Part shown: piece by piece, positions 4,997 through 15,693 of the stretch
How positions within the stretch are numbered: position 1 is the first letter of the stretch
Layout: each line of letters opens with the position of its first letter
Assembly (NCBI RefSeq): GCF_023238445.1
Contig: NZ_CP096658.1
Location: 2,170,001-2,234,000, forward strand
DNA: 64,000 nucleotides
Source of the DNA: Halorussus gelatinilyticus
GTDB taxonomy: Archaea; Halobacteriota; Halobacteria; Halobacteriales; Haladaptataceae
Direction: 5' to 3'
The notes under the pieces: model-generated
The model's input: the letters and a program-made list of their open reading frames with translations, nothing else
What the model was told of the DNA's origin: nothing
Databases searched by the model: none
Program-made: the position numbers and the translations under genes

Positions 4997-5860
4997 TTAG
5001 AGCAGCCCCGTCTTCTGGAGCTTCATGAGGTCCTCGGTGTCGAGGGTCTCGCCTTCCTTGAACTGCTGGTAGATCTCTTCGGCCTCTTCCTTGGCCTCTT
5101 CGCGCTCCTTCTCCTTCTCGGACTTGCGCTCTTCCTCTTCCTGCTTGTCGAGTTCGCGTAGGCGCTTCTGGACGCGCACGAAGTCCTCGTGGTGCTGGTC
5201 GGCCGACTCCTGAGCTTCCACGAACTTCTCGTGCATCTCGTCGGCCTCGTCGCGGATTTCGTCGGCTTCGCGGTAGGCCTCGATCATCTGGTTGTGATGC
5301 TCTTGGGCCTTGTCCGCGAGTTCCGTGACCTTCTCGTGGTGGCGGCTCGCCTCGGCGCGGACCTCTTCGGCTTCCTCGACGAGTTCGTCGAGGTCCTCGC
5401 TGTCGTCGAGCTTCTCCTTGCGGGCCTGAAGCTTCTCGCGCTTCTCCTCGATCTTCTCGATGAGTTCGCGCTCGTCCTCGGTCGAGAGGACCTCGGTCTG
5501 CTGCTTAAATTCGAGGTCTTCGATCTCGGATTCGAGCTCCTCGATGTCCTTGCCCTCGTCGAGTTCGAGGTCTGACTTCTTCTCCTCGACCTCGTCGAAC
5601 AGCTCGTTGGCCTTCGCGTTGAGGTCGTTGCGCTTCTCCTTGTGTTCCTGAACCTGCTCGTTGAGCTCGTCGCGCTTCTCGCGGTGTTCCTGCGCTTCGT
5701 CGACCTTCTCTCGGGTCTCGGCGTTCAGGTCGTCACGCTTGGACGCGCGCTTGCTTGCCTTCTGGTTCAGCTCGTTTCGTCGGTCTCGGAGCTGGCCCGC
5801 GAGTTTGATCAGTTCGCCTTTCGACTTGTTCTGGAGTTCCTCTTCTGTTACACTTACCAT
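4997..5860 (-). CDS. Long coiled-coil protein
   Basis: A 287-residue, extremely charged protein that is almost wholly alpha-helical coiled coil. Glu, Lys, Asp, Arg and Gln dominate from residue 5 to 270, with heptad-like spacing of Leu, Ala and Val (QLRDRRNELNQKASKRASK, EELESEIEDLEFKQ). It has no signal, membrane segment or enzymatic motif. The C-terminus (DTEDLMKLQKTGLL) is conserved-looking and less charged. Proteins of this appearance are widespread in haloarchaea as uncharacterised coiled-coil or SMC-like proteins; a structural or chromosome/cell-shape role is only a guess. Start ATG 5858-5860 follows a leader of about 150 bases with a GAGG ribosome-binding site. Confidence 0.85.
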   Translation of the reverse strand: MVSVTEEELQNKSKGELIKLAGQLRDRRNELNQKASKRASKRDDLNAETREKVDEAQEHREKRDELNEQVQEHKEKRNDLNAKANELFDEVEEKKSDLELDEGKDIEELESEIEDLEFKQQTEVLSTEDERELIEKIEEKREKLQARKEKLDDSEDLDELVEEAEEVRAEASRHHEKVTELADKAQEHHNQMIEAYREADEIRDEADEMHEKFVEAQESADQHHEDFVRVQKRLRELDKQEEEERKSEKEKEREEAKEEAEEIYQQFKEGETLDTEDLMKLQKTGLL

Positions 5861-6220: not shown

Positions 6221-8125
6221 CTACAGCGGGTAGACGTTCTGGACGCCTCCGTCCCGTCCACCGAACGAGAGTTCGACGCTCTCGGCGTCGGCGGGCACGG
6301 TCAGGGTGCCCGCACGCTCGGAATCGAGGGGACCGACCTCCACGTCGCTCCCGCCGGTCTGCCCGTCGGCGGTCCACGAGACGGTGCCCGAGACGGCCTC
6401 GGGCGTGTCGTTGACCACGACGAGTTCTCGGGTGTCCCCGGCCGCCGGGTACGCGTCCAAGACGACCTGGACGGGTTCCAGCGAGGCGGCCATCGCCTCG
6501 TAGCCCGCCTTCTCGGTCCCGTCGGCCGACAGCACGCCCATGCCCGCGCCCTCGTCGGCGTCGCGGAGCGCGTCGGCCGCGAGCAGACCGCTCCCCCGGC
6601 GGCGAAGCGTCTCGGTCACGCTCTTGAGGACGCGGGCTTGATACGCCTGCGAGGCCTCGACGGCGGACTCGTCGTCCGACCCGCCACTCGACCCGACGTA
6701 CGCGGCGTGAGCGTCGGCGTCGAACCCGGCCGCGTCGCGGCCCTCATCGGCGACGAGCGACCCCGCGCCGAACGCGCCGACCGGGCCGTCGCAGTCGTAC
6801 TTGTCGAGGAGCCAGTCGGCGTCGCCGGGCGTGCCGAACTGCCAGCCGGGGTAGAGGTGCGTCGCGTCGGCGTCGATGCCCGGCCCGCCCGAGACGGGGA
6901 AGACCGGCGTTCCGTCGGGGAACGCCGCGGCGACCTCGCGGTCCGCGGCGGCGTCGTAACTCGCGCGCCACGCCCGCCAGCGGACTTTGTAGCGCGCGAG
7001 CCGGGACGGACCGACGCCCGCGAGGTGGTCGGTCGGGTCGGCCCGGACGCCGAACGCGGCCACGCAGGGGTGGCGCTCGACCGACGAGGCGACCGTCTCG
7101 GCCAGCGCCGCCGCCCCGTCGGAGTCGGTCTCGCTACTTCCGACCAGCGGGAGGTCCTGCCAGACCAGCAGTCCGGCGTCGGTCGCGGCCTCGTAGAACT
7201 CCGCTGGGGGGACGTGACCGTACGCGCGTACGAGGTTCGCGTTCGCGTTCGCGGCGCGCTCGACGTCCCACGTCGGGTCGCCCGTCGGGAGCAGGGAGAA
7301 TCCGCGGGCCGGGACGCGCTGACCGTTGACGACCAGCGCGTCGTCCGCGCCGCGCTCCCCGCCGTCTGCTCCCGCGCGCTCGATTTCGCAGAGGCCGGTC
7401 TCCACGACCGCTTCGGAGTCGCCGAGTTTCGCCCGGACCGCGTACTGGTGTTGCGGTCCGAACCCCGCGGGCCACCAGTAGGCCGGGTCTCGGAGTTCGA
7501 GCGTCTTCGAGACCGTCGCGCGCTCCGCGCCGTCGGTCTCGACCCTCGCGCGCTCCATCACGCCGCCGCCCCGGAACCCCTGCGGGCGCACCGACAGCGA
7601 GATGCGGTCGTCCAGCGGTTCGCCCGCCTCGACCGCGATTTCGGCGTCGACGACCGCGCCGTTCTCGGTCCGGCGCGGCGTCAGCGAGAGCGCGTCCACG
7701 AACGTCTCGGGATGGGTCTCCAGTTGTGCGCCCCACCAGATGCCGGGGACCGCGCGCTCGTCGGGCACGCGGTCTGTCGCGTAGACGCCGGCGAACTCGT
7801 CGGGGGCGCGACACTCCACGACCAACTCGTTGTCCGCGTCGAGGTCCAACTCGTATCTCGCGGGGCGGAAGTGCGCGTCGTGTTCGCCCAACTGCTCGCC
7901 GTTGAGCCAGATACGGGCCCGCGCGAACAGGCCGCGGAGTTCGAGGGTCGCGCGCTCGTCGCCGTCGCGGGGGTCGCCGAACTCGGTTCGGTACGCCACG
8001 CAGTCGGCGTCGGCGAACCGCTCGGGGCGGCCGGGCACGTCCACGGGGTGCCACTCGTCGGGGGAGGGCGGCTCGTCGCCCGCGGACGGGTCCACTGCCG
8101 CACCCGTCCAGTCGGTCAGAGACAT
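6221..8125 (-). CDS. Glycoside hydrolase family 2-fold protein, apparently catalytically inactive
   Basis: A 634-residue protein laid out like GH2 beta-mannosidases and beta-galactosidases: N-terminal jelly-roll (about 10-170, ARIWLNGEQLGEHDAHFRPARYEL), immunoglobulin-like domain (about 175-270), TIM barrel (from about 280, ANANLVRAYGHVPPAEFYEAATDAGLLVWQDLPL in pieces) and a C-terminal beta domain. The acid/base 'NE' position near residue 360 reads FGVRADPTD, and the nucleophile 'EFG' position near 455 reads GAFGAGSL. Both glutamates are therefore missing, so it probably binds sugar rather than cleaving it. No signal peptide is visible. ATG 8125 is preceded by TATA-like taaaacctat (minus strand) at 8151-8160, so it is leaderless. 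Confidence 0.75.
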   Translation of the reverse strand: MSLTDWTGAAVDPSAGDEPPSPDEWHPVDVPGRPERFADADCVAYRTEFGDPRDGDERATLELRGLFARARIWLNGEQLGEHDAHFRPARYELDLDADNELVVECRAPDEFAGVYATDRVPDERAVPGIWWGAQLETHPETFVDALSLTPRRTENGAVVDAEIAVEAGEPLDDRISLSVRPQGFRGGGVMERARVETDGAERATVSKTLELRDPAYWWPAGFGPQHQYAVRAKLGDSEAVVETGLCEIERAGADGGERGADDALVVNGQRVPARGFSLLPTGDPTWDVERAANANANLVRAYGHVPPAEFYEAATDAGLLVWQDLPLVGSSETDSDGAAALAETVASSVERHPCVAAFGVRADPTDHLAGVGPSRLARYKVRWRAWRASYDAAADREVAAAFPDGTPVFPVSGGPGIDADATHLYPGWQFGTPGDADWLLDKYDCDGPVGAFGAGSLVADEGRDAAGFDADAHAAYVGSSGGSDDESAVEASQAYQARVLKSVTETLRRRGSGLLAADALRDADEGAGMGVLSADGTEKAGYEAMAASLEPVQVVLDAYPAAGDTRELVVVNDTPEAVSGTVSWTADGQTGGSDVEVGPLDSERAGTLTVPADAESVELSFGGRDGGVQNVYPL

Positions 8126-8150
8126 ACTCGGGGAACGAAACCCACACCAG

Positions 8151-8160
8151 ATAGGTTTTA
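8151..8160 (-). promoter_or_regulatory. TATA-like box for the GH2-fold gene
   Basis: Minus-strand taaaacctat lies 26-35 bases before ATG 8125, matching the other leaderless promoters in the window. Confidence 0.5.
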
Positions 8161-8203
8161 CGTCCCGCGGACGACCACTTTCACTTTCACCGCGCCCTTG
8201 GAA

Positions 8204-8212
8204 CAATTTAAG
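8204..8212 (+). promoter_or_regulatory. TATA-like box for the small Cys-rich gene
   Basis: The stretch caatttaag sits 26-34 bases before ATG 8238. This favours that start over the ATG at 8217, which would lie upstream of the expected transcription start. Confidence 0.5.
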
Positions 8213-8237
8213 TAGGATGGCGGGACCAGCCTACGTC

Positions 8238-8390
8238 ATGCTCGAAGACCTACGGTGCGTCTGCGACGGTCGGAACTGCGAGCGCGCCCTCGGCGAGAAC
8301 GACCTGATGCTCCGGATGACGACCGACGCGGGCGAGCGCCGCGCCTACGAGTGCGCCTGCGGCGCGGTCACGGTGACGGTCGTTCGGTAG
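8238..8390 (+). CDS. Small cysteine-rich protein
   Basis: A 50-residue protein beginning MLEDLRCVCDGRNC. It carries two Cys-X-Cys pairs, near the N-terminus (CVC, with another Cys shortly after) and near the C-terminus (CACGA), a pattern that suggests one zinc or metal site. It has no membrane segment. The start is chosen by promoter spacing; an ATG seven codons earlier gives 57 residues. It lies 60 bases before a flavin reductase-like gene on the same strand, so joint transcription is possible. I do not recognise a named family. Small zinc proteins of this size are common in haloarchaea. Confidence 0.65.
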   Translation: MLEDLRCVCDGRNCERALGENDLMLRMTTDAGERRAYECACGAVTVTVVR

Positions 8391-14682: not shown

Positions 14683-15693
14683 TTAGGACTTCCCACCGCT
14701 GAACGACGCGAGAACGTCGAGATACGCGGAACCGTGATTCTCACTCCGGAACCGACCGCGTTCGATGTGCGTTCCTTCCGTCCAATCGTTGAACGTCGCG
14801 ACGCTCACGCGGTCGCTGTACCGTGTAGCTAACGCGAGTAGCTCGCGGAAGTGCTCCGGCGAACGCGGAATCCGGCGGTCTAACCCCCAGCACTCGTTAT
14901 GTAAGTCGTCGAATCCCGGAATCACGGTCGGGAAGAAAGCGAGATCGTTCTCGTCCGCGTACGACGAGAGCGCGTCGTAGTTCGTCTCGATGTGGTCGTA
15001 CGCTTCGTCCCAATTGGCGGCGGGGTTGGCAGGATTGTATCCCACCCAATAAGTTACGCCGTCGAGTCGTTCGAGAGCGGGGTCCGCCCAGTCCGGGAAC
15101 CCTCCCACTGCGGCGTTGAACACGTCGCCGACGAGGAAGGGTTCGAGACCGTCGACGGTCAACTCGGACCGGACGAACTCGACGAGTTCGCCGAACCCGC
15201 CGTAGCGGTCTCGAACGTAATCTCGAACGGTTCGTCGTCCCTGCATTCCCGCCCAGTGGAGGCACAGAACGTCCCAGAGCGTGACGACCGGACGTCCGTC
15301 GAATCGGCCGATGTTAGGTCGTCCGAGGAAGTGTTCGCGGACGAACGCCAAGTCCGTTTCGAGGTCGCGGTCGCGACGCAGCGCCTGTCCGACGACGTAG
15401 AACGGTTCGAGGTCGAGTTCGTCGCTCGATTCGGCGTCGTCGTACGCGCGGAATCGTTCGTGGTCGTCGTCCCCCTCGCCGAAGTTGAACATCACCGTGG
15501 ACGCGCCCGCCTCCAGCAGTTGACGGACGTGTTCGTCGGTGACCTCCGGCGGAATCGGGTCGCCGTACCGCCCCACTGCGGGATGAGCGACCGTCGTACA
15601 CTCGCCGAACTTGTCGCCAACGAAGGGAACGTACACGACGCCGACGTCGAGCGACGGCTCGCCCCGTCCCGACGTTCCTCGTCTTTCTGTCAC
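14683..15693 (-). CDS. GH99/GH71-like glycoside hydrolase-fold protein
   Basis: A 336-residue TIM-barrel protein resembling GH99 endo-mannosidase and the related WbsX-type domains. The start VGVVYVPFVGDKF, a middle VVTLWDVLCLHW and the end VSVATFNDWTEGTHIERG fit that group, whose members act on mannan-type or glycan substrates. Catalytic residues cannot be assigned surely. GTG 15691-15693 is the first possible start after an in-frame stop. No signal peptide is seen. Its G+C and codon use look lower than in neighbouring genes, which suggests recent acquisition. It may belong to surface-glycan metabolism. Confidence 0.62.
   Translation of the reverse strand: MTERRGTSGRGEPSLDVGVVYVPFVGDKFGECTTVAHPAVGRYGDPIPPEVTDEHVRQLLEAGASTVMFNFGEGDDDHERFRAYDDAESSDELDLEPFYVVGQALRRDRDLETDLAFVREHFLGRPNIGRFDGRPVVTLWDVLCLHWAGMQGRRTVRDYVRDRYGGFGELVEFVRSELTVDGLEPFLVGDVFNAAVGGFPDWADPALERLDGVTYWVGYNPANPAANWDEAYDHIETNYDALSSYADENDLAFFPTVIPGFDDLHNECWGLDRRIPRSPEHFRELLALATRYSDRVSVATFNDWTEGTHIERGRFRSENHGSAYLDVLASFSGGKS

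Follow-up and report, generated by a model that had tools for sequence, protein, structure and literature searches.

A haloarchaeal family of GH2-fold proteins with repeated loss of catalytic glutamates and its probable pseudoglycosidase member in Halorussus gelatinilyticus

Known pseudoglycosidases are mainly a few eukaryotic examples. The Klotho proteins (GH1-like), YKL-39 (GH18-like) and CyRPA (GH33-like) have kept a glycosidase fold and retained binding, whereas catalysis is lost (PMC7828330). These eukaryotic proteins belong to other GH families, whereas the family described here is archaeal, derives from GH2 and is eroding repeatedly across an order; that it binds is what we infer. No report of a haloarchaeal, other archaeal or GH2-derived pseudoglycosidase was found in the open-licence literature, which is no proof of novelty.

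In retaining glycosidases, replacement of the nucleophile by alanine abolishes normal hydrolysis. The PDB titles for the GH2 beta-mannosidase XacMan2A name Glu477 as the acid/base and Glu575 as the nucleophile, and the deposited E575A and E477A structures of XacMan2A are mutants of this kind. The protein studied here resembles XacMan2A (6byc) in its whole domain plan and fold, and XacMan2A is its best match both by sequence profile and by Foldseek, but it is more than 200 residues shorter, Asp and Ala replace the catalytic glutamates, and the strand-8 motif 'WQLND' reads 'ADALRD'. The GH2 beta-glucuronidase-like structures 8dhe and 7kgz align cleanly with it across both catalytic motifs ('GLFNE' and 'SEYGAG'), although the catalytic glutamates themselves are missing from it. 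The same order also contains a separate and longer family of haloarchaeal GH2 enzymes (L025 and its relatives, with frames of about 900 aa) that shares the GH2 fold; used as a control, this family keeps Asn, Glu and Glu, that is the Asn-Glu pair and the nucleophile, in 31 of 31 sequences, unlike the family described here.

Gene, fold and catalytic positions

The gene is located on the minus strand of the window, i.e. the whole stretch of 64,000 nucleotides of H. gelatinilyticus DNA that was analysed (Table 1). Translation of the window gives a 634-residue frame free of internal stops, and the first-pass annotation was correct in its coordinates as well as in calling the frame complete and unbroken. 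No signal peptide was seen by eye in the 634-aa protein, which is probably cytosolic. The same window also encodes a GH99-like protein (14683-15693, minus strand), which matches PF16317 above the cut-off in its C-terminal third.

The GH2 domain order of beta-sandwich, immunoglobulin-like domain and TIM barrel was found by Pfam, by modelling and by structure comparison. PF00703 scored above its curated cut-off and PF22666 just below, and the barrel model PF02836 fell short of its cut-off. The AlphaFold2 model, computed from an alignment of 58 sequences (A2), reached a mean pLDDT of 94.5 and a pTM of 0.94, with barrel strands at residues 273-278, 298-301, 320-324, 355-362, 408-413, 421-424, 449-452 and 514-517. 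The best matches in a single-sequence search of the PDB were GH2 beta-mannosidases and an exo-beta-glucosaminidase, a PDB profile search matched the beta-mannosidase XacMan2A at E about 1e-30, and the top Foldseek match of the model was again XacMan2A, as GH2 exo-beta-mannanase 6byc (E 3e-37). When residues 1-634 of the model were compared to GH2 enzymes using VIA-align 2, Z scores of 30.7 (9npf), 28.5 (5n6u) and 28.5 (6bye, 603 residues) were obtained. The GH2 domain plan, first proposed from the letters by eye, was thus borne out by PF00703, by the XacMan2A profile match and by the end-to-end alignment of the model with GH2 beta-mannosidases, and the beta-mannosidase comparison suggested at that time (6bye and 5n6u, both Z 28.5) gave a full-length GH2 beta-mannosidase-like fold.

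The catalytic positions were located using a barrel profile (A3) of 26 relatives, some of which still carry 'EFGAGS'. The profile alignment is gapless at both motifs, with 'GVHDDP' opposite 'GLFNEL' and 'GEFGAG' opposite 'SEYGAG' in 8dhe, and likewise in 7kgz; Asp363 is therefore at the acid/base place and Ala451 at the nucleophile place. In 358-FGVRADP-364, Asp363 is opposite the Glu of 'GLFNE' (8dhe) and 'GLSNE' (7kgz), and in 450-GAFGAGS-456, Ala451 is opposite the Glu of 'SEYGAG' and 'SEYGAD', respectively. Thus, Ala362-Asp363 is found where GH2 enzymes have Asn followed by Glu at the end of strand 4, and Ala451 where they have the strand-7 nucleophile Glu. The early claim that both glutamates are replaced stands for both positions, but the residue at the acid/base place is an Asp and still acidic, so that only the nucleophile place is fully devoid of a carboxylate.

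Table 1. Coordinates of the features in the window
Feature	Coordinates	Strand	Basis
GH2-fold probable pseudoenzyme CDS, 634 aa (P0002)	6221..8125	-	ATG at 8125; stop codon 6221-6223
N-terminal beta-sandwich, residues 1-127, GH2 sugar-binding-domain-like	7745..8125	-	PF22666 weak, just below cut-off; all-beta in AlphaFold2 model
Immunoglobulin-like domain, residues 128-250 (PF00703 Glyco_hydro_2)	7376..7744	-	27.3 bits against a cut-off of 23; strands in model
TIM barrel, residues 262-550	6476..7342	-	Eight barrel strands in model; PDB profile matches
C-terminal beta domain, residues 551-634, Mannosidase_ig-like	6224..6475	-	PF17786 very weak; all-beta in model
Asp363, codon GAC, at GH2 acid/base glutamate position	7037..7039	-	Alignment to 8dhe/7kgz; barrel strand 4 ends at 362
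Ala451, codon GCG, at GH2 nucleophile glutamate position	6773..6775	-	Alignment to 8dhe/7kgz; barrel strand 7 is 449-452
Putative shared divergent promoter region, 112 bases	8126..8237	-	Conserved over 10 Halorussus loci; promoter predicted from conservation and spacing
DUF7121 coiled-coil protein, 287 aa, conserved downstream neighbour	4997..5860	-	PF23435, 465 bits

Variation in Halorussus and across haloarchaea

The gene was detected at full length in 17 of 18 Halorussus genomes, the genome without a match being 62% complete. Fifteen of these copies are intact and two, in G022 and G026, contain a single frameshift; these frameshifts (L024/L028 and L023/L029, respectively) are possibly assembly errors. 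The start of the protein (MSLxxW) is kept throughout the genus, and Nei-Gojobori dN/dS values of 0.20-0.26 between Halorussus pairs indicate purifying selection. A chance frame or frame artefact was rejected on the grounds of the presence of the gene in 17 of 18 genomes and a dN/dS of about 0.2. The nucleophile Glu is absent from all 17 copies, intact and frameshifted, and is replaced by A, G or S. The strand-4 motif reads RAD, RSD, HAD, HVD, HDE or HDG in Halorussus, and mostly HDDP or HDEP in the other haloarchaea. The conservation of 'RAD' and 'A' that the first-pass annotation had suggested looking for in haloarchaeal homologues was not observed, since both vary even inside Halorussus, and selection for these specific letters was therefore rejected.

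Full-length relatives were identified by profile search (E <= 1e-10) in 153 of 392 haloarchaeal genomes, in 37 of 95 genera, a few of the weakest matches being other GH2 proteins. The gene is missing from about 60% of the haloarchaeal genomes sampled and is thus dispensable. Full-length intact ORFs are present in eight family-level groups, and no full-length member was found outside the order among 247 genomes drawn from the phylum. The catalytic states were scored on 134 distinct aligned members, five of which contain both glutamates (L055, L061, L094, L103 and L108), 31 only the acid/base Glu, 42 only the nucleophile Glu and 56 neither. Judging from these residues, the five two-glutamate relatives could be active. 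A tree was built with both catalytic columns left out, and at least 10 changes of the nucleophile state and at least 11 of the acid/base state (Glu versus any other residue) are counted on it; these counts give no direction. We also considered whether the two glutamates exclude each other (Fisher p = 0.002), but the association fails once relatedness is taken into account using independent pairs. Rather than an oddity of a single genome, the H. gelatinilyticus protein is one of a family that is spread through the haloarchaea and whose members have repeatedly lost one glutamate or both.

When the 634 positions were ranked by conservation, position 363 was 402nd and position 451 was 390th, and both thus vary more than the median residue. 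High ranks were found for the pocket residues Arg300 (12th), Gly416 (14th), Gly413 (22nd), Trp428 (24th) and Asp522 (29th), with Arg300, Gly413, Trp428 and Asp522 almost invariant, and the residues flanking the catalytic places, Val360, Val449 and Gly453, are also kept (79th-88th). Mean pairwise identity is 49% in the barrel compared to 48-50% in the N-terminal beta domains. The members of one clade, f6 (L081, L082, L083 and L154-L157), lack about 70 barrel residues, including the nucleophile strand region, and their beta domains are well conserved. In the model of one f6 member the beta domains are of high confidence, and pLDDT drops to 40-65 in places in the second half of the barrel. This short, low-confidence barrel counts against the pocket as a universal binding site, and function, at least in f6, is independent of the old active site.

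Promoter region and neighbouring genes

Upstream of the gene, the conserved TATA-like element GTAAAACCTA lies about 30 nt from the GH2-like ATG. A second one, CAATTTAAGTAGG, precedes a small divergent gene, and both elements are found about 25-30 nt before the starts. They are consistent with leaderless haloarchaeal promoters. As conserved elements precede both starts at this distance, the description of the gene as promoter-bearing is plausible. The divergent ORF (8238-8390, plus strand) codes for 50 residues, is Cys-rich and zinc-ribbon-like, and weakly resembles DUF7871.

Among 41 loci that cover several family-level groups, 38 have a same-strand DUF7121 gene directly downstream, at a distance of about 42-358 bases. 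DUF7121 is a haloarchaeal core gene and was found in 389 of the 392 haloarchaeal genomes sampled. Because DUF7121 is near-universal, the pairing indicates an old, vertically inherited location and not a proven partnership, and the adjacency may reflect vertical inheritance only. A functional tie deduced from co-occurrence was considered but is unsupported beyond the adjacency, as practically every genome has DUF7121 whereas many lack the GH2-like gene.

Alternative explanations and likely function

It is very improbable that the alignment is wrong and that other acidic residues occupy the catalytic positions. Overall sequence identity with GH2 enzymes of known structure is low, at about 15-22%, and PF02836 stays below its cut-off, but relatives with 'SEFGAGS' and 'RNEP' or 'HDEP' in exactly these columns anchor both motifs. 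In the high-confidence barrel the two motifs lie where strands 4 and 7 end, and their alignment with those of the solved enzymes is gapless. The gene might otherwise be decaying, functionless and on its way to loss, its open frame being a matter of time and high GC content, as its absence from about 60% of haloarchaeal genomes, the two frameshifted Halorussus genomes and the shrinking barrel of the f6 clade could suggest. However, a dN/dS of about 0.2 over many pairs, intact full-length ORFs in eight family-level groups, a confident fold, a conserved 5' region and the kept position beside DUF7121 all argue against decay, which is already disfavoured and appears unlikely.

The protein may also still be an enzyme with a changed mechanism, in which Asp363 or an Asp-Asp or Asp-Glu pair on strand 4 would act as the acid/base and the nucleophile would come from the substrate, as in the GH20 and GH84 N-acetylhexosaminidases, or from water. 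In GH20 and GH84, two neighbouring acidic residues on strand 4 carry out substrate-assisted catalysis, and many nucleophile-less relatives hold Asp-Glu or Asp-Asp there (HDEP, QDEP), within a pocket whose surround is conserved. Nevertheless, in 13 of the 15 Halorussus copies this pair begins with Ala, Ser or Val, and in one its second residue is Gly. Position 363 is also one of the family's more variable positions, unlike any catalytic residue and unlike the invariant positions of the true GH2 control family. A changed mechanism is therefore rather unlikely, and substrate-assisted catalysis by such a pair is disfavoured in Halorussus.

A glycosidase fold, the loss of catalytic residues and a gene under selection are found together here, as in pseudoglycosidases, and the protein is probably a GH2-derived pseudoglycosidase, kept by selection and inherited vertically, that lacks the double-displacement mechanism and most likely binds a ligand or partner. 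Its ancestor would have been a beta-mannosidase-like GH2 enzyme that settled beside the DUF7121 gene early in haloarchaeal history, with vertical inheritance thereafter. Double displacement would have disappeared with Ala451 in place of the strand-7 nucleophile and the shorter Asp363 in place of the strand-4 acid/base. The two N-terminal beta domains are under purifying selection, as is the barrel pocket (Arg300, Gly413, Gly416, Trp428 and Asp522). Given this selection, binding is the most likely mode of action: the old pocket may accept a sugar or a ligand that contains one, or the beta domains may contact a protein partner; as the catalytic residues were lost many times and the rest was kept, binding is likelier than cutting.

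The sequence strongly suggests that hydrolysis by the GH2 mechanism has been lost, and more weakly that the protein binds either a sugar or other ligand containing sugar, or a protein partner. A weak or unusual activity of the Halorussus protein is formally conceivable, since Asp363 is still acidic. The first-pass annotation had proposed a pseudoenzyme selected for glycan binding, scaffolding or sensing. Its pseudoenzyme under selection is upheld by the intact ORF, purifying selection, the conserved 5' region, the confident GH2 fold and the absence of a nucleophile carboxylate in Halorussus, although nothing points to selection for those particular residues, and glycan binding, sensing or scaffolding would be its putative role.

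A more far-reaching possibility, which we consider doubtful, is that these proteins form an ancient pseudo-GH2 family, passed on vertically, and cooperate with DUF7121 in a core process, the former sugar pocket having become a sensor or docking site. If true, it would represent the first archaeal pseudoglycosidase family, in which the repeated loss of catalysis is visible as it happens.

When haloarchaeal genes of this kind are annotated as 'glycoside hydrolase family 2' or 'beta-galactosidase', sugar-degrading capacity is overstated. This GH2-derived family spans much of an archaeal order, its glutamates have been lost many times and few relatives keep both; because of these repeated losses and the few two-glutamate relatives, the step from enzyme to binder is open to comparison and testing.
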